Shown: piece by piece, positions 34,878 to 55,052 of the stretch
Layout: every line of letters begins with the position of its first letter
Position numbering within the stretch: position 1 is the first letter of the stretch
IMG/VR virus record: IMGVR_UViG_3300031952_000001
Span: 147,983 to 211,982 of that record
Direction: 5' to 3' (one strand)
Source of the DNA: a virus
DNA: 64,000 bases
Translations under genes and position numbers: made by a program
Notes under the pieces: generated by a model
What the model saw: only the letters and a program-made list of their open reading frames with translations
Told to the model about the DNA's origin: nothing
Databases searched by the model: none

Positions 34878-34879
34878 AG

Positions 34880-34969
34880 TTCAACCCTACCTTTAAGACC
34901 TTCAAGGTACCTTCAACCCTACCTTACCCTAGCCTTCAACCCTACTTTGAAAACCTTCAACCCTACCTT
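34880..34969 (+). repeat. iteron-like direct repeats TTCAACCCTACYTT
   Basis: Full 14-bp copies start at 34880, 34912, 34935 and 34956 (the third has TTT instead of CTT); a partial copy is at 34901. Spacing is 32, 23 and 21 bp. A related TTCAACCCTCCC occurs near 35260. Confidence 0.7.
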
Positions 34970-34992
34970 GAACCTTTGTTTTAACCACCACC

Positions 34993-35195
34993 AAGGTATA
35001 GTCAAGACCCCCTTGGTACCCCTTCTGGGAGCTGAAAATACCATAGGTTTGAACCCTTCAAAGAGGTCTTGACTATACCTTCCTGGCGGTTGCATCGATG
35101 GTTACTATTTTATTAGAAGTTATACGTTTCATAACCCGAAATACTGTCAAAATTATTCAATGATTTATAGCGAACTAGCCTCTTGACTATACCTT
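34993..35195. repeat. three copies of TTGACTATACCTT, two forming a 17-bp inverted repeat
   Basis: AAGGTATAGTCAAGACC (34993-35009) and GGTCTTGACTATACCTT (35065-35081) are perfect inverted arms 55 bp apart. A third copy in the second orientation is at 35183-35195. All three extend into a similar downstream sequence ending GGTT, so the real unit is about 23 bp. No -10 hexamer is correctly spaced, so these are not simply early promoters. Confidence 0.7.
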
Positions 35196-35482
35196 GCCGA
35201 CGGTTAGTGGCATACCTTCATAGGGTTGGAAGTCAAGGGGAAGATGGGCCTCAAATTCAACCCTCCCGGGAAGGGTCTTGGGTTGCAACCGCTGGTAAAC
35301 AAGATGTCAAGGCCTTTTGAAGGGTGTTAGAAGGCCTAGCCGCTCAAGGCCGCGCGCCGTGCGCCACTGGTATTCTTGCGCTTTTCAACTGGGTATTGCA
35401 GCTGGTGTCCGTTTTTACAGTATTTCTATCTTTCTAACTCGGTTTTCAACCTTTTCAACCCTGTTTTTGCGTTTTTTGCCGA

Positions 35483-35549
35483 GGGTATTCCTCAGATCCT
35501 TCAGAACTCTTCAGTTCCTTCAGAGTTCTTCAGGATCTTCAGAATACCC
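35483..35549. repeat. 67-bp composite palindrome of helically phased TTCAG units
   Basis: Nested inverted arms GGGTATTC/GAATACCC, GATCC/GGATC and GAACTC/GAGTTC are separated by symmetrical 4-nt TTCA or CTCA interruptions around a 13-nt centre. The same DNA reads as six (T/C)TCAG units at 35491, 35500, 35510, 35519, 35529 and 35538, spaced 9 or 10 bp. Confidence 0.75.
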
Positions 35550-35777
35550 CCAGATGATCTACAGGAACTCTATAGCTATGTACAAGAACCACTTGGGATC
35601 AGGATCGTCCGATCCTATTGATCCAGCTTTGTAAGTTTATTCATCAAAATTAGACTGGGATCGTCTGTACGACTTACCTTTAAGGGGCTCGAAGAGCATT
35701 CAACTTGGGAAAACCCCCGGGGCGATTTTTACATCATTTGGTGATGTATTGGCAAGGTATGCCTACAACCCGTAGGG

Positions 35778-35808
35778 TTTAAAAATTCAACAGGTCTTGT
35801 AGTACGCT
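35778..35808 (+). promoter_or_regulatory. late-class promoter
   Basis: TTTAAAAATTC (35778-35788), then -10 TACGCT (35803-35808), 40 bp before the ATG at 35848. Confidence 0.7.
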
Positions 35809-35847
35809 GCGGTTGTGGGCAGAATACTGGATTCAGGAGACTCAACA

Positions 35848-36312
35848 ATGACCAAAGCCACAACCCCTTCGGACTCTCCCGTCGAGCTGGCCCCAGAAGG
35901 ACTCAAGATTCGAGTTCGCTGGAAGTTCATCGTCTCTGTTCTCGGCTTCCTGCTGTGCGGGGGCAGCTTTGCCGGCGTGGCTGCGATGTTCAACGTCGGC
36001 ACCAGCGTTGCCGACGACTTCAGCACTTTCAAGTCCGAGCAGGGCTCTGCGCACCTGCACATCGACTCGGCTCTCGATTCTCAAGACTCGCGTGCGAAAG
36101 CGCAGGACGACAGGATCGAGGGTATCAGCAAGGTGGTCTCCTCCGTCCAGACGACGCAGCAGAGGGACGTTGCCCGTACAGAAGCTCGCCGGCTCACCGA
36201 AAAAATACAAAATCGAATTGAGCGTGAAGAATCGTACGACCGCCTCTACGAGCTAAATCTCAAGCATTTACAACGTGGTGAGGACCCTTGCGGCACCGTG
36301 AGCTGTGATTAG
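35848..36312 (+). CDS. membrane-anchored coiled-coil protein, 154 aa
   Basis: One hydrophobic helix (FIVSVLGFLLCGGSFAGVAA, about residues 27-46) is followed by a long helical tail (KAQDDRIEGISKVVSSVQ) and a C-terminal cysteine pair. The single-span, coiled-tail topology resembles phage spanins or membrane-bound packaging/lysis accessories. AGGAG precedes the ATG at 35848. Confidence 0.65.
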   Translation: MTKATTPSDSPVELAPEGLKIRVRWKFIVSVLGFLLCGGSFAGVAAMFNVGTSVADDFSTFKSEQGSAHLHIDSALDSQDSRAKAQDDRIEGISKVVSSVQTTQQRDVARTEARRLTEKIQNRIEREESYDRLYELNLKHLQRGEDPCGTVSCD

Positions 36313-36392: not shown

Positions 36393-37181
36393 GTGGAACT
36401 GACCACTCTCCAGCCGGCTTGCAAGATTTGCATCCTGATGCGGTTGGACAGCAACCTGTGGAAGGAGCTGCACCGCAAGGTCATCATCGAGCGGGTCAGC
36501 CGGGCGAAGGCGCTGACGTGGCTCAACCAGCGGGCGGAGATCCTGAACATCACCCGGGAGGAGAACAACTGGGAGCTGTTGCCGACGTTTTCCACCAACG
36601 GCATCGTCAAGCACTTCAAGATGCACATCACGGACTTCACCCAGGTCGAGGCGTACATCGCGGCTCAGAACATGTTCTCTCCCGAGGCTCGGGCGAACCC
36701 CGCGAAGATGGCGCTCCAGGCCTCGGCGGCATCGGAGATGGACGACTATCTCCGCCTGGAGTCCCTGATCTCCGCCTCGGTGGTGCAGCTCGAAAGCTAC
36801 GAGAAGACCTTGTCCGCGGCGGCCAGGAAGAACCAGGGTGACGGCAAGTCGCCGCCCATCGTGAACCTGGAGGAGGTGAAGATTTTCCAGAAGCTGATCC
36901 GGGAGCAGATGGCGATGAAGAAGGAGCTGGCGGTCCTTCAGGCCAAGCAGGCGGTCGCCGGCACCGCCCTCCGGGACGCTCTGGAGCGGGTCGTTGAAGT
37001 TGTTATGAACGCAATTCAGGATTCCATGGTAGAATTGCGGTCGAACCTGCACCAGCAGTACGCGAACCCGGAGTGGGGCGAGAAGCTGGCGAGGATGGTG
37101 GCCTACAAGATCGGGGAGCCCTTGAAGGCGTCGATCCCCTCGATTTTGGACGAGGTCTACAAGAAGTACAAAATACGATGA
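36393..37181 (+). CDS. putative terminase small subunit, 262 aa
   Basis: Assigned mainly by position two genes upstream of the large terminase. The GTG start follows GGGAGG. The N-terminus has paired cysteines and a helix-turn-helix-like stretch (LHRKVIIERVSRAKALTWLN); the middle is coiled (KKELAVLQAKQAVAG); the C-terminus is helical. Small subunits recognise the packaging site and activate the motor. A DNA-binding adaptor with a different role is possible. Confidence 0.5.
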   Translation: MELTTLQPACKICILMRLDSNLWKELHRKVIIERVSRAKALTWLNQRAEILNITREENNWELLPTFSTNGIVKHFKMHITDFTQVEAYIAAQNMFSPEARANPAKMALQASAASEMDDYLRLESLISASVVQLESYEKTLSAAARKNQGDGKSPPIVNLEEVKIFQKLIREQMAMKKELAVLQAKQAVAGTALRDALERVVEVVMNAIQDSMVELRSNLHQQYANPEWGEKLARMVAYKIGEPLKASIPSILDEVYKKYKIR

Positions 37182-37468
37182 GCCCAGTCACAAAGACCTT
37201 CACCCATGATCACGTCGTCCGCGACCCTGCGGGGAAACCGGTCGGCCGCGCGATCCTACTCAACGACAAGGGCTACACCGAGGGAGCCCCGCTTCCGGTG
37301 GCGGTCCTGCTCGTCCCGGTGACCGCGACGAAGAACATCCGGAGCTTCGTGTTCTACATCGACGGCATCGCGTACAGGATCCCGCAGGACACGCCTCAAG
37401 GGCGGATACTGCTCTCAGAGGGCATGCACAAGGTCAACCACGTTGTGCTCCAGAAAGTGAACCCGTAA
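37178..37468 (+). CDS. hypothetical protein, 96 aa
   Basis: The ATG at 37178 overlaps the upstream stop, and its own stop shares a base with the terminase ATG. A beta-rich small domain (GRAILLNDKGYTEGAPLPVA, FVFYIDGIAYRIP) is sandwiched in the packaging operon. Role unknown. Confidence 0.65.
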   Translation: MSPVTKTFTHDHVVRDPAGKPVGRAILLNDKGYTEGAPLPVAVLLVPVTATKNIRSFVFYIDGIAYRIPQDTPQGRILLSEGMHKVNHVVLQKVNP

Positions 37469-39723
37469 TGGAGACCGGTTTTCTCGACAACATCGGCAAG
37501 AGGATCGACACTGCGCTGGAGTCGAGGACGTCGAGCGGCTTGACCGGTCCCGAGGTCGAGTACCTCCGCCGGCCGGCTCCGAACATCTGCGAGTGGGTGA
37601 CCGGGCTCGACTACTGGAACGTGCCCACGACGTTCGACCACACCCGCCAGTACCAGATCATGCGCGACCTGTTCGGGGTGCGCTGTCCGATCTGCAACTC
37701 GATGAAGCCCGAGGCGGTCGACTGCTGGGGCAAGAGCCGGATGTACCTGGAGTCCGAGGTGCTGCTCTGCTGGGTCGAGAGCGAGCAGGACTTCGTGTGC
37801 CCGCGGTGCGGCAGCACGCAGCGCGAGCTGCTCCACGACGGCATCCTCCAGGCCTACAACGAGACGATCATCCTGGCCGGCATGCGCTCGGGGAAATCGT
37901 ACCTGGGCGCTCACATCGGAGGGTACTTCGAGAACTTCATATCGAGCCGGGCGATGTTCGGCCAGGGCCACCTCCAGAGGATGCTGAAGCAGGAGAAGAG
38001 CGAGTGGTTCGAGGTCACCTTCTCCGCGTCGACCGCGACCCAGGCGCAGCAGACCATCTACGCCAAGTACCGCGAGATGCGGAAGAACTCTCCGTGGATT
38101 CAGCGCTACTCCTCGTGGGTCCAGGCCTTCGAGTCTCAGCAACCCTCGGAAGTCGACCGCTGGATGTACAACACCAACGCCGACGCCATCCTGGATGGCT
38201 GGGCGCGCGTGCGCTACAACCGCATCGCTAGCGACTCGGCCGGTGTCGCCGGCAAGACGCGCATCATGGCGTCCATCGACGAGTGGGCTCGTCTCGCGGA
38301 CACCGAGGGCAGCCGCTCCGCGAAGGAGCTGTACCGCGTGCTGAACCAGTCCCTCGCCACGGTCCGCGCCGCGGTGATGCAGAACGAGCTTCCGTCTTTC
38401 CTGGGGATGATGCTGAACGTGACCTCGCCGATCTCGCAGGACGACCCGGCGATGGAGCACTACAACAAGGCGGCCGAGGGGATCCTGCCGAGGACGTACT
38501 ACTGGAAGGGCGCGACCTGGGACTTCAACCCGCAGATGCCGCGGCACGTCTTCGACGACGACTACGTGAAGGACGCCATGGGCGCGGAGCGTGACTTCGG
38601 GGCGAACCCGCCGAACGCCGAGAGCCCCTACGTGGACGACCCGAAGCGTTTCTGGAAGAGCATCGACTTCGACCGCGACCCCATCGCCCGCTTCCGGCCC
38701 TCGTTCTTCGAGGACACGACGGGCAAGAAGTACATCGGCATGGAGGTCGAGGAGTGCAAGCTGAACCACGTCAACCCCTACTACCTGTTCGGTGACGCCG
38801 GGCTCAACTGGGACTCGTTCGGGCTCGTCATGGCGCACTCCGAGTGGCTCAACGTGGACGACTTCGAGTCCGACGAGACTGGCCCCGACGGAGAGCCCCT
38901 CATTCGCCAGAGGGCTCCTGTGGGCCGCGGCAGGATGGAGCCTGTCGACGAGTACGGGGTCGTCTTCTCCGAGGACCTGGGGACGTTCCTCGGCGCGAAC
39001 ATGCCGGTCGGTGCCGACGGCGACATGATCATGGAGGCTCAGAAGAACCGCCGCCGCATGGCGAACTACTTCACCGCCTCGAACAAGGCCGGCGCTCGTC
39101 CGTTCGATCACATGAACGAGATGCTGTGCACGGTGATCGACTTCTCCGTGCGCATCGTTCCGACCCGGGAGCGGGACATCTGGTTCAACTCGGTCGTGAA
39201 CATCATCGCCGAGGTCCAGAAGAAGGTCCGGATCGCCGGGGTGGCGTTCGACCACTGGAACGCCGAGTCCACGATCCAGCAGCTCCGGACGATGGGCATC
39301 ATCACGACGAAGGTCCAGCTCGGGCCGGTCCACTTCATGAACTTCCTGCGGATGACCTACAACGGCCGGGTGAAGCTCCTTCCGCCACATGCGGAGGACA
39401 CCGTGGGCATCACGGACACGGGGGCCCTCGTGATCGCGACCCCGCAGGAGCAGATGCAAGGGCAGTCCGTCGCGCTGGTCGAGCTGCTCAAGCTCACGCG
39501 GTCTCCGGACCTGAAGAAGTTCTTCAACCCGAAGAAGGGGACCGTCCGGGGTCGAGACTCGGACGATCTCGCGCGCTGCTACGTCGGCGTCCACCATCTC
39601 ATCCAGGATTCTATTGTGGATTCTCAGGCAAATATGAAGAGAAAGATGAATATACGAAAGAGAATGGCTGCCACGGATACAAGCGCTCTAGGCTCTGTTG
39701 TCTCGGGGAGAGGTTCCTGGTAG
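37468..39723 (+). CDS. terL: terminase large subunit (packaging ATPase/nuclease)
   Basis: Motor that pumps DNA into the prohead and cuts concatemers. Walker A GMRSGKS at residues 138-144, Walker B MASIDEWA with D271-E272, and RNase H-like nuclease acids at FGDAG (D443), FDHWN and RDSDDLARC near the C-terminus. At 751 aa it is longer than typical 450-650-aa enzymes because of an N-terminal extension with CPIC (73-76) and CPRC (111-114), probably a zinc module, before the ATPase. The last 40 residues are AT-richer and basic (MKRKMNIRKRM). A TnpB gene begins 3 bp after the stop. Confidence 0.92.
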   Translation: METGFLDNIGKRIDTALESRTSSGLTGPEVEYLRRPAPNICEWVTGLDYWNVPTTFDHTRQYQIMRDLFGVRCPICNSMKPEAVDCWGKSRMYLESEVLLCWVESEQDFVCPRCGSTQRELLHDGILQAYNETIILAGMRSGKSYLGAHIGGYFENFISSRAMFGQGHLQRMLKQEKSEWFEVTFSASTATQAQQTIYAKYREMRKNSPWIQRYSSWVQAFESQQPSEVDRWMYNTNADAILDGWARVRYNRIASDSAGVAGKTRIMASIDEWARLADTEGSRSAKELYRVLNQSLATVRAAVMQNELPSFLGMMLNVTSPISQDDPAMEHYNKAAEGILPRTYYWKGATWDFNPQMPRHVFDDDYVKDAMGAERDFGANPPNAESPYVDDPKRFWKSIDFDRDPIARFRPSFFEDTTGKKYIGMEVEECKLNHVNPYYLFGDAGLNWDSFGLVMAHSEWLNVDDFESDETGPDGEPLIRQRAPVGRGRMEPVDEYGVVFSEDLGTFLGANMPVGADGDMIMEAQKNRRRMANYFTASNKAGARPFDHMNEMLCTVIDFSVRIVPTRERDIWFNSVVNIIAEVQKKVRIAGVAFDHWNAESTIQQLRTMGIITTKVQLGPVHFMNFLRMTYNGRVKLLPPHAEDTVGITDTGALVIATPQEQMQGQSVALVELLKLTRSPDLKKFFNPKKGTVRGRDSDDLARCYVGVHHLIQDSIVDSQANMKRKMNIRKRMAATDTSALGSVVSGRGSW

Positions 39724-39726
39724 TAA

Positions 39727-40881
39727 ATGCACCGTGCCTTCAAATTCCGACTCTTTACGAACTCCAATCAAGAGCGCGAACTCGGCGTCATGCTCGAAAC
39801 GCACCGCCGACTCTACAACCTCTGTTTGGAGCAACGGCGTGACCTCTACCGCCAGCACGGACATTCCGTCCGGTACATCGACCAGTCTGCGGAGTTCAAA
39901 GACCTGCGCAGCGACAACGCCTACTTCGCGCGGATCAACTTCTCTTCGGCTCAGGCCACGATGCGCCGTCTCGACAAGTCGTTCGTCGCGTTTTTCCGTC
40001 GCGTGAAGGCCGGACAGACGCCCGGCTATCCGCGTTTCAAGGCCAGCGACCGTTTCGACAGCATCGAGTTCCCGAACTACGGCGACGGCATCCGCCTGAA
40101 CGGCAATCGGCTTCGAGTTCAGCACGTTGGTGTGATTCGCTGTAAGGTTCACCGTCCCGTCGAGGGTGCAGTCAAGACGGCCACGCTCAAGCGCGAGGGT
40201 GGCAAGTGGTTCGTGATTCTGTCCTGCGATCTCGGAGACATTTGGGTTGAGCCGAGCACTCTTCCCGCCGTTGGCATCGACGTGGGTCTCGAAAACTTCC
40301 TCACCACTTCTGACGGTGAGGTCGTCGAGAACCCACGCTTCCTCAAGAAGGAACTCCCCGCCCTGCGCCGTGCTCAGCGTGCCGTCTCTCGCAAGAAGAA
40401 GGGTGGAGCGAATCGACGAAAGGCCGTCAAGGGCGTTCGTGTTATTCATGCGCACGTCGCCAACCAGCGGCGCGAGCATCATCATAAAACTGCTCTGAAC
40501 TTGATCCGTTGCTACGGCTTGATCGCGGTGGAGAGCCTGAACATTCTCGGAATGGTCAGGAACCACCGGCTCAGCCAAGCAATCGCGGACGCCGCATGGG
40601 GCGGCTTCCTGACGGTCCTGGGACACAAGGCTGAAAGAGCCGGTGTCACTGTGATGGCTGTAAATGCGTGGGGCACAAGCCAGGAGTGCAGCGGTTGCGG
40701 CGAAGACGTACACAAGGAGCTTCGTGTGCGTCAACACGTCTGCCCGCACTGTGGCCTGTCCCTGCACCGAGATGAGAACGCGGCCAGGAACATCCTGACT
40801 CGCGCTCTCCAGGCCCGGATGGGGCCTGTGGGCGTCAACGGGGAGAGCCCCGTTGCCCAAGAAGCCGTCTGCTTTAGCTGA
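39727..40881 (+). CDS. tnpB: TnpB (IS200/IS605-family OrfB), RNA-guided nuclease
   Basis: RuvC residues appear intact: D185 in GIDVGLENF, E269 in GLIAVESLNILG, D349 in LHRDENAARN. The zinc finger is CSGCG (321-325) with CPHCG (339-343). The N-terminal HRAFKFRLFTNSNQERELG is the family-typical wedge start, and 384 aa is normal length. There is no tnpA transposase nearby. TnpB cleaves DNA guided by an omega-RNA normally transcribed from the end of its own gene. It lies between terL and the next virion gene and may act as a homing-type element. Confidence 0.9.
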   Translation: MHRAFKFRLFTNSNQERELGVMLETHRRLYNLCLEQRRDLYRQHGHSVRYIDQSAEFKDLRSDNAYFARINFSSAQATMRRLDKSFVAFFRRVKAGQTPGYPRFKASDRFDSIEFPNYGDGIRLNGNRLRVQHVGVIRCKVHRPVEGAVKTATLKREGGKWFVILSCDLGDIWVEPSTLPAVGIDVGLENFLTTSDGEVVENPRFLKKELPALRRAQRAVSRKKKGGANRRKAVKGVRVIHAHVANQRREHHHKTALNLIRCYGLIAVESLNILGMVRNHRLSQAIADAAWGGFLTVLGHKAERAGVTVMAVNAWGTSQECSGCGEDVHKELRVRQHVCPHCGLSLHRDENAARNILTRALQARMGPVGVNGESPVAQEAVCFS

Positions 40882-50377: not shown

Positions 50378-50770
50378 ATGAACGAGCAGAACACCCCCGA
50401 GACCGAATCCCCGCGGGAGGACAACGTGACCACCCTTCCGGTTCCGCCGGCAGCCCCCGCACCGGCAGCTCAGGAGCTGCCCACTGTGGGGTCTCCGAAG
50501 CGCTCCCATGTGAAGCTGAACCGGGCCCAGCGCGCCGAGGTGCGCTTGGCTTTCATGACCATCACGGAGGCGGAGACGCGGTTCAAGGCCGCGACGGAAG
50601 CCGCCAACGTGGCTCGAAGCTCGACGATGTCGGCCAGGTCCCAGGCTCTGGAGGCTCAGGCCAAGATTCTCCAGGAGCTGGACCTGTCCGACGACAACAT
50701 CGTCGATGTGGAGAACCTCGTGGTTCTGCCTCCGAAGGGTGAGTCGTTCGTGAAAGGCAGGAATGAGTAG
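50378..50770 (+). CDS. hypothetical head-operon protein, 130 aa
   Basis: Pro/Ala-rich start (LPVPPAAPAPAAQELP), then a helix (FKAATEAANVARSSTMSARS). Overlaps the portal gene by 8 bp. No family recognised. Confidence 0.6.
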   Translation: MNEQNTPETESPREDNVTTLPVPPAAPAPAAQELPTVGSPKRSHVKLNRAQRAEVRLAFMTITEAETRFKAATEAANVARSSTMSARSQALEAQAKILQELDLSDDNIVDVENLVVLPPKGESFVKGRNE

Positions 50771-53700
50771 CTTCATCCCGAACCGCCAGTCGTCCGTGTT
50801 CAAGCCGAGGATCATCTCCTCGGATTCCTCTTCCATGAGGCAGGAGATCGCGTCGAGCGTTCTCCCCAAGGGTGCCTCACTGGCGGTTCCGTCCTCGTTC
50901 CACCAGAGGACTGCTTCCGGCTTCTTCGGAGGCAACATGCCGATGGGGGTCTCCCCCTTCGGCTCGGGCGGCGGTGGCGGCAGCTCCATGTACCATATGC
51001 AGCGGCCCTACATGCCCGGGGTGGAGTCCCCCGACCGAGTCCAGTACCCAAGAACCCGAGAGGAAGCCAACCGGGCTTGGCGACTGTTCCATGAGACCGA
51101 CCCGATCTTCGGTACAGCCATGGACATGTACGCCGAGATGCTCGTCTCCGATTTCGACGTCATCGTCGGCGACGACAAGTCCTCCGAGATTCGGAACACC
51201 TTGGAGTACATGTGCCAGACGACCAACCTGATGGACAGACTCCGCTATATCATCCGCGAGTACCTGGTGCTCGGAGAGGCGATCCCTCACTGCTGGACGC
51301 CTGAGCAGAGCGTTCTGACTCCTGATGGGTTCAAGAGGATCGATACCGTCGCTGAGGGTGATCTGGTGCTCACCCATGAGCGTCGATTCCGACCTGTCAC
51401 GGAGGTGCACGTCAGGGAATATTCTGGCGATGTCTTGAATTTCGGCATTGAAGGGATCTCTGCGCTTCCGTGCAGGTGTACTCCGGAGCACCCTCTCTAC
51501 GTGTGGACTGAAGACGGTCCGGTTTGGAAGCGTGCGAAGGACGTGACCATTCTGGACCACATCGCAGTGGGGGTCGATAAGGACGTCGAAGACATCGAAG
51601 ATTTTGACGTCTCTGATGTCGTTCCCGAGTATTTTGATTTGTTGGCCGAGAACGACAAGCACAATGAGCATACGGGGCGGGAGCCCATTCCGGACATCGT
51701 CAAGGTCGACGAAGACTTCATGCGGCTGGTCGGGTACTACTACTCGGAGGGCAACGCCTTCGTGACCAGCCGGAAGGGCCGGCTGACTTTCTCTTTCCAC
51801 ATAGACGAGGCCCCCTATCACGAAGATGTGGCTCGGATCGTCAAGGCCAAGTTCGGAGTGGAGTGTCGCTTTGACATGAAGCCCGACACCCACACCTGCC
51901 AGATACATATTGATTCCAAGATCATTGCGAGCTTTTTCCTCAACCTATTTGGGACGGGTTGCAGGGACAAGCTAGTCCCTTCCTGGCTTCGGAAGTTGCC
52001 TATCCACAAGCAGAAGAGCTTTCTGATAGGGCTCTTCCGCGGGGACGGAAACATCTACTACAGCAAGGTGAGTAAGTTCACGACCGCTCAGGTGCAGCTG
52101 GCTCATGAAGGTGTTACCCATCTAGCTTGGCAGATGCTCTTGCGGATGGACGTTGCCGCGTCCTTCAACATCTTCAGCAGAGCCCGGTATGGCAGTTACT
52201 GGAAGTGCTCTTTCAATGCCGGCGTGTACTCTGCCCTCGCGGAAGAGATCTTTGAAGAGTATGTCGAGCCTGCTCTCATAGTCAGGAAGCATGCGCAGAT
52301 CCGTCACGACACTCTCTTCTATCGAGTTCGTTCCATCGAGCGTGAAGAGTACGAAGGCTCTGTGTACAACCTCGAAGTGGAGGAAGACCACAGCTACGTT
52401 GTGGGCGGCATCGTTAGCCACAACTGCTTCTTCGACGACAGCCTGGGGATCTGGACCTACATCGCGATGCACAACCCGGACTTCATCGAGGTCCTGGATT
52501 CCCCCATCGTGAACATGGACCCGATCATCAGCTTCATCCCCGACGAGTCCCTCAGGTCGATGATGTCCGCAGGTACGCCAGAGGCTCGCGAGTTCCGTGC
52601 GCGATTGCCGCCGGATTTCGTCTCCAGGATCCTCGCTCGACAGAAGATTCGCCTGTCGCCGCTGAACTGTACGTTCATTCCGCGAAAGCTCCATCCGTAC
52701 CAGACGCGCGGGACTTCGTTGGCGAGCAGAATGTGGCGAATCTTCATGGTCGAGGATGCGGTATATAATTCCACAATTGCGACATTCAGGAGACATGCGT
52801 CACCTGTTAAAGTGTTGAAACTTGGGGATCCTGCGACGGGCTGGATACCTGCGCCAGGTGCGGAAACTAAGCTACTTGAGATGCTTAACCGAGCTGAGGT
52901 GGATCCACACAGCTGGTTGATTTATCATTATGGGATTAACTTTGAGCAGTGGGGCACGACGGACAAGAGTGTCACAATTGGCAAAGAGCATGATGTGATA
53001 GAACGTGTGAAACTTTTGGCACTTGGGTTGTCCAAGAGTTTTATGACAGGCGAGGTCACGTACGCCTCATCGTTATACGATTCTTTCGTTAGATCTTCGG
53101 ATGATTCGACTGTTTTTCTTGGTGAGGTGCTAGTTGGAGATCTCGTTAAGGATCGGTTCGGTGACACCCAGAAAGTCACCAATGTTCTGAAGTACCCTTC
53201 GCCAGACAAGATGGTGAAGATCTCGGTGTACGGCAACCGCAGCTTGACGCTCACCGACAACCACTTCCTTCCCGTCTTCATGCGCCCGAGGACTTGTCTG
53301 TGTGGCTGTGGTACGCTGCTCGGTGATGAGCGCTACGTCGCCCAGGGCCACATGTTCTGGCGGTCGTTCGTTCCTGGTCACCACAAGCTCAGCGAACGTG
53401 GGGGCCGGGACCGGGTCTGGAAAGAGTACAAGCACGACGACAAGGTGATCGTCCGGTTCCCCGAGAAGCATGACCCTCACCAGAAGCTCATGGCTGCCGA
53501 GGTCATCAAGGGTGACTGGCTGATGATCCCTCGGAAGTTCGAGGTGTCCGACACGCCGGCCACGGAAGAGAACCTCAAGAAGGCTCGGTTGCTCGGATAC
53601 TACGTTGCCGAAGGCAGCGTGCGGGATGGGGCGACTCCTGGTGCCAACCCGAGCGCCACCTTTTCTTTTGGCAACGAAGAGAAGGAGCTGCTTTACGCGG

Positions 53701-55052
53701 AGGATGTAAAGTCTTGTGCAGCTTCTTTGGGTTTTGATGTCACTGTGCGCAAAGAAGCCGATCTTTGTTACACTGCTTACGTTCCTACTTCTTCTCGATC
53801 TCTCACGGACTGGTTGGATGTGAGCGCCCATCGTTACAGCCAGACGAAGTATCTTTCTTCCGAGGTCATGCACTGGAACCTGGATCTGAAGAAGGAACTC
53901 ATCAAGGGCATGTTCCGCGGAGATGGGTACATCTTCAAGGGGGGGAACGGCAAGACGACCAAGAACCGACTCGACATCGTGTACGTCACGACGTCTCAGC
54001 AACTCTCTTTCCAGGTGGAGTTGATCCTTGCTCAACTGGGGTACGCCAGCTCAGTGCATCAGAGCGAAGAGCGCGTGGACAAGAAGGGCTATGTACATAA
54101 GCCCTGCTGGAATATTTCCATTTTCGGAAAGCAGGCCATGCCTCTTGCCCAGTTCGTGTGGGGTGAGGTTCCGGCCGTGTGGGATCAGTTCAATTTCGAC
54201 GACTTCGATAAGGGCTCCCAGGGAGAGCGCTTCGAGTGCTTCAAGGACGATGACTTCCTGTACCTGCCGGTGACGAAGGTTGAGATCGTCGAGGTCGACA
54301 AGGAGAGGGATCCCTTCGTCTACAGCCTCACGGTCGAGAACACCGAGAGCTACACGCTGGACAACATCGCCTCTTACAACTCGGCCAAATCCGGTCTACA
54401 GGTCTTCCTTCGCCGTCTACTGTCTCTCCGACAGCTCCTGGAGAACCTCTGGATCTACCCGAAGTTCTTCCGACCGATTTCCGAGATCAACGACTGGACG
54501 ACGGCTTCCAAGAGCGAGGTGAACCACAACTACCGCGTCAAGCGGACCGCTCAGGAGATCCAAGAGCGGAACATGGTCATGGTTCCCACGTTGAAGTGGA
54601 AGAACAAGCTCGATCCGACCGTCGACACCGACGTGCTCGCGGCGTACCAGATCCTGGAGAAGTTCGGGATCAAGCTGTCGAAGGCGACCGTGTCTTCCGC
54701 GGTGGGAATCGACTGGGAGGACGAGCTGGAGAAGTCGCTCAAGGAGTTCAAGACCGAGAAGGAGAAGAAGGAGCAGACTCTCGGTCAGACGGAGTTGGCT
54801 CTGTACGAGGCCGAGCACGGGAAGGCCAGCCAGACGCCCGGTGGAGCCCCTCCGGGTGCTCCCGGCGGGCCTGGAGCGGGGGCGAAGCCTCCAGCGGCTA
54901 CTGGGAAGCCTCCGGGCGCGATGGGCGCTCCTGGCGCACCTCCAGGCGGTATGAACGATGCCTCGAATCCGCCAGGTAGCGCCGAGCCTGCGGTTCCGGG
55001 CGCTCTTGGCGGAGGGATCGAGGGTCCTGGCGGCGGTGGGTTGCCGGGATGA
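50763..55052 (+). CDS. portal protein interrupted by two inteins (1429 aa precursor)
   Basis: Dodecameric ring at the capsid vertex through which DNA passes. Exteins are residues 1-176, 555-768 and 1207-1429, giving about 613 aa after splicing, a usual portal size. Portal features include RAWRLFHETDPIFGTAMDMY, the Gly-rich N-terminus, VEDAVYNSTIATFRRHASPV, the stem-like GLQVFLRRLLSLRQLLENLW and a Pro/Gly-rich C-terminus. Both inteins sit inside conserved portal segments, typical intein targets. Coupled by ATGA to the next head gene. An AT-rich exon tract lies just left of intein 2. Confidence 0.88.
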   Translation: MSSFIPNRQSSVFKPRIISSDSSSMRQEIASSVLPKGASLAVPSSFHQRTASGFFGGNMPMGVSPFGSGGGGGSSMYHMQRPYMPGVESPDRVQYPRTREEANRAWRLFHETDPIFGTAMDMYAEMLVSDFDVIVGDDKSSEIRNTLEYMCQTTNLMDRLRYIIREYLVLGEAIPHCWTPEQSVLTPDGFKRIDTVAEGDLVLTHERRFRPVTEVHVREYSGDVLNFGIEGISALPCRCTPEHPLYVWTEDGPVWKRAKDVTILDHIAVGVDKDVEDIEDFDVSDVVPEYFDLLAENDKHNEHTGREPIPDIVKVDEDFMRLVGYYYSEGNAFVTSRKGRLTFSFHIDEAPYHEDVARIVKAKFGVECRFDMKPDTHTCQIHIDSKIIASFFLNLFGTGCRDKLVPSWLRKLPIHKQKSFLIGLFRGDGNIYYSKVSKFTTAQVQLAHEGVTHLAWQMLLRMDVAASFNIFSRARYGSYWKCSFNAGVYSALAEEIFEEYVEPALIVRKHAQIRHDTLFYRVRSIEREEYEGSVYNLEVEEDHSYVVGGIVSHNCFFDDSLGIWTYIAMHNPDFIEVLDSPIVNMDPIISFIPDESLRSMMSAGTPEAREFRARLPPDFVSRILARQKIRLSPLNCTFIPRKLHPYQTRGTSLASRMWRIFMVEDAVYNSTIATFRRHASPVKVLKLGDPATGWIPAPGAETKLLEMLNRAEVDPHSWLIYHYGINFEQWGTTDKSVTIGKEHDVIERVKLLALGLSKSFMTGEVTYASSLYDSFVRSSDDSTVFLGEVLVGDLVKDRFGDTQKVTNVLKYPSPDKMVKISVYGNRSLTLTDNHFLPVFMRPRTCLCGCGTLLGDERYVAQGHMFWRSFVPGHHKLSERGGRDRVWKEYKHDDKVIVRFPEKHDPHQKLMAAEVIKGDWLMIPRKFEVSDTPATEENLKKARLLGYYVAEGSVRDGATPGANPSATFSFGNEEKELLYAEDVKSCAASLGFDVTVRKEADLCYTAYVPTSSRSLTDWLDVSAHRYSQTKYLSSEVMHWNLDLKKELIKGMFRGDGYIFKGGNGKTTKNRLDIVYVTTSQQLSFQVELILAQLGYASSVHQSEERVDKKGYVHKPCWNISIFGKQAMPLAQFVWGEVPAVWDQFNFDDFDKGSQGERFECFKDDDFLYLPVTKVEIVEVDKERDPFVYSLTVENTESYTLDNIASYNSAKSGLQVFLRRLLSLRQLLENLWIYPKFFRPISEINDWTTASKSEVNHNYRVKRTAQEIQERNMVMVPTLKWKNKLDPTVDTDVLAAYQILEKFGIKLSKATVSSAVGIDWEDELEKSLKEFKTEKEKKEQTLGQTELALYEAEHGKASQTPGGAPPGAPGGPGAGAKPPAATGKPPGAMGAPGAPPGGMNDASNPPGSAEPAVPGALGGGIEGPGGGGLPG
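51291..52424 (+). mobile_element. intein 1 of the portal (378 aa) with LAGLIDADG endonuclease
   Basis: Begins Cys (CWTPEQSVLTPDG) and ends VSHN followed by Cys+1, the canonical class 1 arrangement. Hint blocks include GDLVLTHERRFRPVTEV, the block-B-like TPEHPLYVW and VYNLEVEEDHSYVVGG. The endonuclease motifs are LVGYYYSEGN and LIGLFRGDGN, with acidic residues retained. Confidence 0.88.
53067..54380 (+). mobile_element. intein 2 of the portal (438 aa), Ser1 type, with LAGLIDADG endonuclease
   Basis: Starts at the first Ser of SSLYDSFV, which aligns with the usual C-x3-D-[ST]-h-V block. It ends ASYN before Ser+1, so the penultimate His is Tyr. Block B is TLTDNHFLPVF; the endonuclease motifs are LLGYYVAEGS and LIKGMFRGDGY. 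The nucleophiles would be Ser/Ser rather than Cys/Cys. Confidence 0.82.

Follow-up and report, generated by a model that had tools for sequence, protein, structure and literature searches.

The non-coding DNA upstream of the terminase genes of a large phage contains a composite palindrome, which raises the question of whether this locus is read as duplex DNA or as a folded strand, and what such a fold would do. The site was analysed in a 64,000-base stretch (the window) comprising bases 147983-211982 of a 211,982-base phage record, and positions given below are those of the window unless another record is named. This phage and the relatives compared with it are known only as metagenomic sequence. 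A first-pass annotation had described three inverted arm pairs with symmetric bulges at 35483-35549 together with six (T/C)TCAG units spaced 9-10 bp, and had proposed that identical faces recurring at each helical turn would serve a multimeric protein on duplex DNA.

The arm pairs and the units were both found. The plus strand of the site reads GGGTATTC CTCA GATCC TTCA GAACTC TTCAG TTCC TTCA GAGTTC TTCA GGATC TTCA GAATACCC, and the six YTCAG units start at 35491, 35500, 35510, 35519, 35529, and 35538 (spacing 9, 10, 9, 10, and 9), which is beyond chance, as no run exceeded three units in ten order-3 Markov genomes of the same size. The 4-nt TTCA/CTCA bulges are real as symmetric interruptions, but structurally they are 2x2 GA/GA internal loops of the minus strand, where each bulge reads CT-GA-AG opposite CT-GA-AG with two G·A oppositions between standard pairs. 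A scan blind to composition and loop letters, in which any hairpin with symmetric internal loops was scored, gave this site 22.5, the top value of the 212-kb record, compared with 17.5 for the runner-up and a maximum of 18.0 in 25 simulated genomes. The RNA folding energy was -46.7 kcal/mol (z -8.9) for the minus strand and -31.7 kcal/mol (z -5.6) for the plus strand. The hairpin occurs in one copy and was the sole strong hairpin with a GNA triloop and G·A-type loops in the three long records scanned (G000, G001, and G003); a CTGAAG-array pattern matched at least 120 stretches in viral contigs, many of them rows of repeats. These results confirm that 35483-35549, upstream of the terminase genes, is a genuine element and not a product of chance.

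The hairpin lies within a non-coding stretch of approximately 970 bp (about 34878-35847), with about 300 bp between it and a small gene for a membrane-protein-like product and about 850 bp between it and the terS-like gene, both downstream; the earlier placement in non-coding DNA ahead of terS was correct, with its 900 bp amended to about 850 bp and the small gene coming first. Searches of PHROG and Pfam returned no match for the small protein. The AlphaFold model of the TerS-like protein had a pTM of 0.39, and a structure search with it matched no known structure. An ORF spanning the hairpin (35376-35621) was rejected as a conserved protein, its L002 counterpart reaching only 36% with 26% gaps. 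Similar DNA was not detected among 50,697 named phage records, and the closest named relative by TerL was Virus Rctr197k, at 36%. The polymerase and helicase genes, at about 42-72 kb of the record, are far from the hairpin at 183 kb, which counts against the reading preferred below, and GC skew showed nothing notable at the hairpin site. A block near-identical in the window and in L002/L003 shares the hairpin's non-coding region and may be part of the same locus.

Several other features of this region and record were observed in passing. A TTCAACCCTACCTT(GAA) repeat array lies upstream of the hairpin at 34878-34984 and, in a longer form, at L003 600-800; inverted and direct copies of GGTATAGTCAAGA / TCTTGACTATACC occur at 34992-35007, 35067-35082, and 35181-35196; and TCTTGACT, with 18 copies in the record against an expected 8.3, is over-represented and may be a phage regulatory motif. 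TnpB-like genes (OrfB_IS605, Cas12f1-like TNB) are located at 39727-40881, right after terL, and elsewhere in the record (L132 16409-17593; record 96409-97593), and a gene just before terS in L145 (345-1550) is TnpB-like by size and reading alone, without a family test. A portal-like protein of 1429 aa (50763-55052) matches portal families over only part of its length, and one stretch of it has simultaneous matches to endonuclease, RNR, helicase, and polymerase families, a pattern that would suit an intein with a homing endonuclease. The N- and C-terminal parts of a 779-aa RecA (L131 3456-5795; record 63456-65795) lie about 500 residues apart, and this protein probably carries an intein.

Known identities for the hairpin itself were also considered. 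An intrinsic terminator was rejected because neither strand has a U-run in the flanks of the window hairpin, an Rfam RNA family because none fits (no match above the gathering cut-off in the window), and an IS200/IS605 end or REP element because Y1_Tnp was absent from four records and the site is single-copy.

Relatives, both close and distant, were gathered by TerL searches, and in each of them the intergenic DNA ahead of the terS operon was inspected. Within the clade defined by TerL identity of about 64% or more, a strong hairpin was found in every species whose contig extends far enough, giving nine species; the contigs of L125 and L179 end before the site and are therefore outside the count. 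All relatives' hairpins were written on the strand antisense to terS (Table 1), and the structure given for L251 is that of RNAfold. The hairpins measure 42-84 nt, stand 235-350 bp before the first gene, and occupy the same strand relative to terS/terL in 9/9 species. Conservation in relatives, on which the first-pass annotation had made its proposal partly depend, was thus found at the same locus. At TerL identities of about 55% or less (L186, L187, L189, L191, and others), hairpins with G·A loops were not found; long perfect hairpins without such loops were observed ahead of the same operon at L187 1821-1854 and L189 2946-2977.

Table 1. Features of the hairpin locus in the window and hairpins of related phages (hairpins 5' to 3', terminal loops in brackets).
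Feature	Position	Strand	Details
G·A hairpin	35483..35549	-	GGGTATTCT-GA-AGATCCT-GA-AGAACTCT-GA-AG[GAA]CT-GA-AGAGTTCT-GA-AGGATCT-GA-GGAATACCC; folding, generic scan, pair check
GAA terminal triloop	35515..35517	-	G-C closing pair here; C-G in L002, L126, L138, L146
Inner GA/GA loop	GA 35520..35521, partner GA 35511-35512	-	folding, pair check
Middle GA/GA loop	GA 35530..35531, partner GA 35501-35502	-	folding, pair check
Outer GA/GA loop	GA 35539..35540, partner GA 35492-35493	-	one T·G wobble closes; folding, pair check
A-rich tract 3' of hairpin (T-tract on +)	35464..35477	-	A-run in this flank, 7/9 species
Block near-identical in window and L002/L003	35100..35243	.	alignment
Operon gene 1, small protein	35848..36312	+	relatives in L004 and L138 with predicted membrane segment
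terS-like gene	36393..37181	+	called by position; C10, C13, H74, H78 invariant
Terminase large subunit gene	37468..39723	+	PHROG 17415, E 5.6e-38
L002/L003 hairpin		antisense to terS	GTAT-GA-C-GA-AGATCCT-GA-AGATCCT-GA-AGAATTCC[GAA]GGAATTCT-GAA-AGGATCT-GA-AGGATCT-GA-G-GA-ATAC
L126 hairpin		antisense to terS	GCC-GTA-GG-GA-GGACTCTCTAC-GGA-GC[GAA]GC-GGA-GTAGAGAGTCT-GA-CC-GGA-GGC
L138 hairpin		antisense to terS	GCT-GGA-GGAAGATTCCTTGC[GAA]GCAAGGGATCTTCC-GAA-AGC
L146 hairpin		antisense to terS	GAGTTTC-GA-GAATCCT-GA-CC-GGA-GT-GA-AGAATTCT-GGA-GC[GTA]GC-GTA-AGAATTCT-GA-AC-GTA-GG-GA-AGGATTC-GAA-GAAACTC
L178 hairpin		antisense to terS	AAAGAATCAACGGTAT-GA-GCATTAC-GA-G[GTA]C-GA-GTAATGC-GAA-ATGCCGTTGATTCTTT
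L144 hairpin		antisense to terS	GCTT-GA-GAAAAATAACCATA[CTAG]TATGGTTATTTTTC-GA-AAGC
L004 hairpin		antisense to terS	ACT-GGA-GTAATATACCTAA[TTTA]TTAGGTATATTAC-GAA-AGT
L251 (contig of L145) hairpin		antisense to terS	CGGTTTTCT-GA-GTTT-GA-C-GAA-GATCCTGATTCT[GATA]AGAATTAGGATC-GA-G-GA-AAAC-GA-AGAAAACCG

The stem letters are largely unrelated among most species while pairing is intact, and pairing has therefore been kept through replacement. In the stems of eight hairpins, 170 pairs are Watson-Crick and 4 are G·T, with mismatches of any other sort absent, and L251 adds 25 and 1, giving about 195 against 5 (about 2.5% G·T) over the nine species. When the window was aligned with L002, the AGAACTCT/AGAGTTCT arm was seen to replace AGATCCT/AGGATCT of L002, and the tip was rebuilt. 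The loops are constant in type: on both of its sides, every one of the 23 internal loops has G as its first and A as its last base (GA/GA, GNA/GNA, or GA/GAA), as compared with 18/386 loops of 2-3 bases per side, on either strand, in a generic scan of three long records, 6-7 of those 18 being the elements themselves. Each of the six triloops is GNA (background 18/174 on either strand); these occupy the template strand in 6/9 species, closed by C-G in four and by G-C in the window and L178. Pairs closing the internal loops place a pyrimidine 5' of G and a purine 3' of A in 42 of 46 cases (binomial p 2.6e-9), and the four exceptions are all G-C, each next to a one- or two-pair spacer. The pyrimidine-GA-purine context is that which favours sheared G·A pairs. 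The asymmetric loops of L002, L178, and L251 were missed by the blind scan and found by RNA folding, which favours G·A mismatches, and most loops of these three are pinned by flanking stems of at least 4 pairs. Under DNA parameters, L126 alone was not significant (z -1.8).

The comparison bears directly on the proposal that a multimer binds duplex DNA through TTCAG units in helical phase. Although the window has six units at 9-10 bp beyond chance, unit and spacing are not kept, whereas the one-strand fold is kept in all species: L138, L144, and L004 lack units and phasing, and in L126, L146, and L178 both are irregular. L138 has no repeated unit, the loops of L146 lie 2-8 bp apart with varied sequence, and L144 and L004 have one loop each. 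A duplex site also gives no reason for G to stand opposite A, and this proposal retains next to no probability. A folded strand, by comparison, is very probably what is conserved, judging from the aligned loci, where the potential fold, its strand, its persistence with replaced stem letters, its place, and its copy number are all directly readable.

A fold of the plus strand, acting as an RNA leader of the late operon through tandem U·C loops (e.g. as an antitermination or stability element), has only a slight chance of being the working form. It folds better than shuffles, and a promoter-like TGTATATTA was read directly upstream on the plus strand in L126, L146, and L251, but its RNA folds are weaker than those of the minus strand wherever compared, and the pyrimidine-GA-purine rule fits sheared G·A pairs of the minus strand, not U·C loops. 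By eye, the region upstream of the hairpin in L126, L138, L146, L178, L144, L004, and L251 contains the promoter-like TGTATATTA, a small inverted repeat (e.g. ATCGTAATACGAT), and then GGCCGCGCAA-like bases.

The minus-strand hairpin could instead act as RNA if a leftward antisense intergenic transcript folded into it and regulated the late operon or bound a protein. RNA energies strongly favour the minus strand, in L138 a promoter-like TGTATATT on the antisense strand directly adjoins the hairpin (that record's remaining six copies face the opposite way), and -10-like hexamers adjoin the hairpin in L144, L178, and L002. However, no leftward promoter signal before the hairpin rises generally above local background, in L138 and L144 transcription starting just past the hexamer would cut into the basal G·A loop, and the few G·U pairs, the missing Rfam match, and the absence of GNRA or UNCG tetraloops from all nine hairpins speak against RNA. 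We regard a transcript as the acting molecule as unlikely. DNA is somewhat favoured over RNA on the GNA triloops, the lack of those tetraloops, and the low G·T content, none of which is decisive; sheared G·A motifs stabilise RNA too, and, against DNA, energies under DNA parameters differ little between the strands (minus -19.8 versus plus -17.1).

The reading we prefer, at a probability of roughly one half, is that of a single-copy, cis-acting site working as a folded single strand, the G·A hairpin antisense to the terminase genes. Sheared G·A motifs (GA/GA, GNA/GNA) would link its Watson-Crick stems, and its tip would in most cases be a GNA triloop; the folded strand is the template for the terminase genes. 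As DNA, the hairpin would form either by extrusion, as a cruciform arm, or in single strands exposed during replication. G·A motifs matter only in a self-folded strand, and the minus strand alone has them; its arm would be stabilised by them, and the plus-strand arm, with T·C mismatches, would be weaker, so that the site would have a direction. A phage protein would recognise the shape of the hairpin and then start a DNA transaction. Genes for SbcD- and SbcC-like subunits of a palindrome-specific nuclease are encoded by this phage (L131 6051-7178 and 8231-10366), despite the strong palindrome kept in it.

The loop types and flank rule match known DNA motifs, namely tandem sheared GA in a pyrimidine-GA-purine context, (GNA)2 internal loops, and GNA triloops, e.g. 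d(GCGAAGC). Those motifs are known mainly from short oligonucleotides, whereas here a single evolving genomic element unites them. The promoter hairpins of phage N4 act as DNA, and their sheared G:A loop has been published (PMC4496689). N4 DNA was used as a shape control and gave GTTGC-GAA-GCAAC and GAAGC-GGA-GCTTC on the template strand. The N4 early promoters are template-strand DNA hairpins with a GNA triloop and a sheared G·A pair closed by C-G; the predicted hairpins here have a template-strand GNA triloop in six of the nine species and its C-G closure in four, and such a d(C-GNA-G) tip would suit a promoter hairpin serving a phage RNA polymerase. In contrast, the stems of N4 promoters are 5-7 bp long, lack internal G·A loops, and end about 5 bases before the transcription start, and these promoters occur in several copies, whereas the hairpins here are present once per genome, are 42-84 nt long with stems several times longer, and stand 235-350 bp from the first gene. 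Moreover, N4 early promoters are read by a virion RNA polymerase, the core of which had no match in G000, G001, and G003 (N4 control positive). A promoter of this type is very improbable. A PF00940 search also gave no match, and was uninformative because its control likewise matched nowhere.

No particular function reaches more than a doubtful standing. The most specific hypothesis is a replication or priming start; as at the phage G4 origin, the hairpin would have a tract of its own strand on the 3' side. G4 primes at a CTG located 3' of its stem-loops (PMC6783573). Here, a strand-specific hairpin is followed directly by (C)CTG on its 3' side in 5/9 species, an A-rich tract lies in the same flank in most species, and a DnaG-type zinc ribbon was present in 4/4 records searched; the DNAG_N domain was not detected. 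Confidence in priming is low because the window lacks the CTG and the enrichment is weak: the CTG is also absent from the junction in L002, L144, and L178, and four CTG at one offset were equalled in about 3% of random flank sets. G4 differs further in being a single-stranded DNA phage with three stem-loops and no known G·A loop theme. The hairpins resemble the d(C-GNA-G) hairpins of N4 promoters and the G4 origin, a likeness that does not by itself place them in either family.

Alternatively, the locus may be a pac site, at which the terS-like protein or the terminase would recognise the hairpin as a landmark and begin packaging. Consistent with this, it is single-copy and keeps one orientation and one place ahead of terS/terL across the nine species, and a single copy beside terS is also usual for the pac sites of headful phages. 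The known ones, however, are duplex sequences; the terS call is positional, its model lacking a known structural match, and we know of no pac site that uses an extruded hairpin. That nine contigs pass through the site unbroken argues weakly against a fixed cos end. The chance of a pac site is small; from its location it would be nearly as likely as a priming start, which we rank slightly higher with little confidence.

No description of such an element was found in the literature, and the hairpin is probably a functional structural signal of a hitherto undescribed kind. We tentatively suggest, at somewhat less than even odds, a new class of cis-acting element, a DNA secondary structure kept in one strand of double-stranded DNA phages, built with sheared G·A motifs, read by shape, and starting replication or packaging. 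To our knowledge, very few natural sheared-G·A DNA hairpins working in cells have been recognised, the N4 promoters being the main one. Nine phage species keep 23/23 G·A-type loops with rewritten stems, a comparative signature usual for RNA. The hairpin gives a defined site with which to look for a protein that recognises folded DNA, and it may reveal how replication or packaging begins in these large phages.
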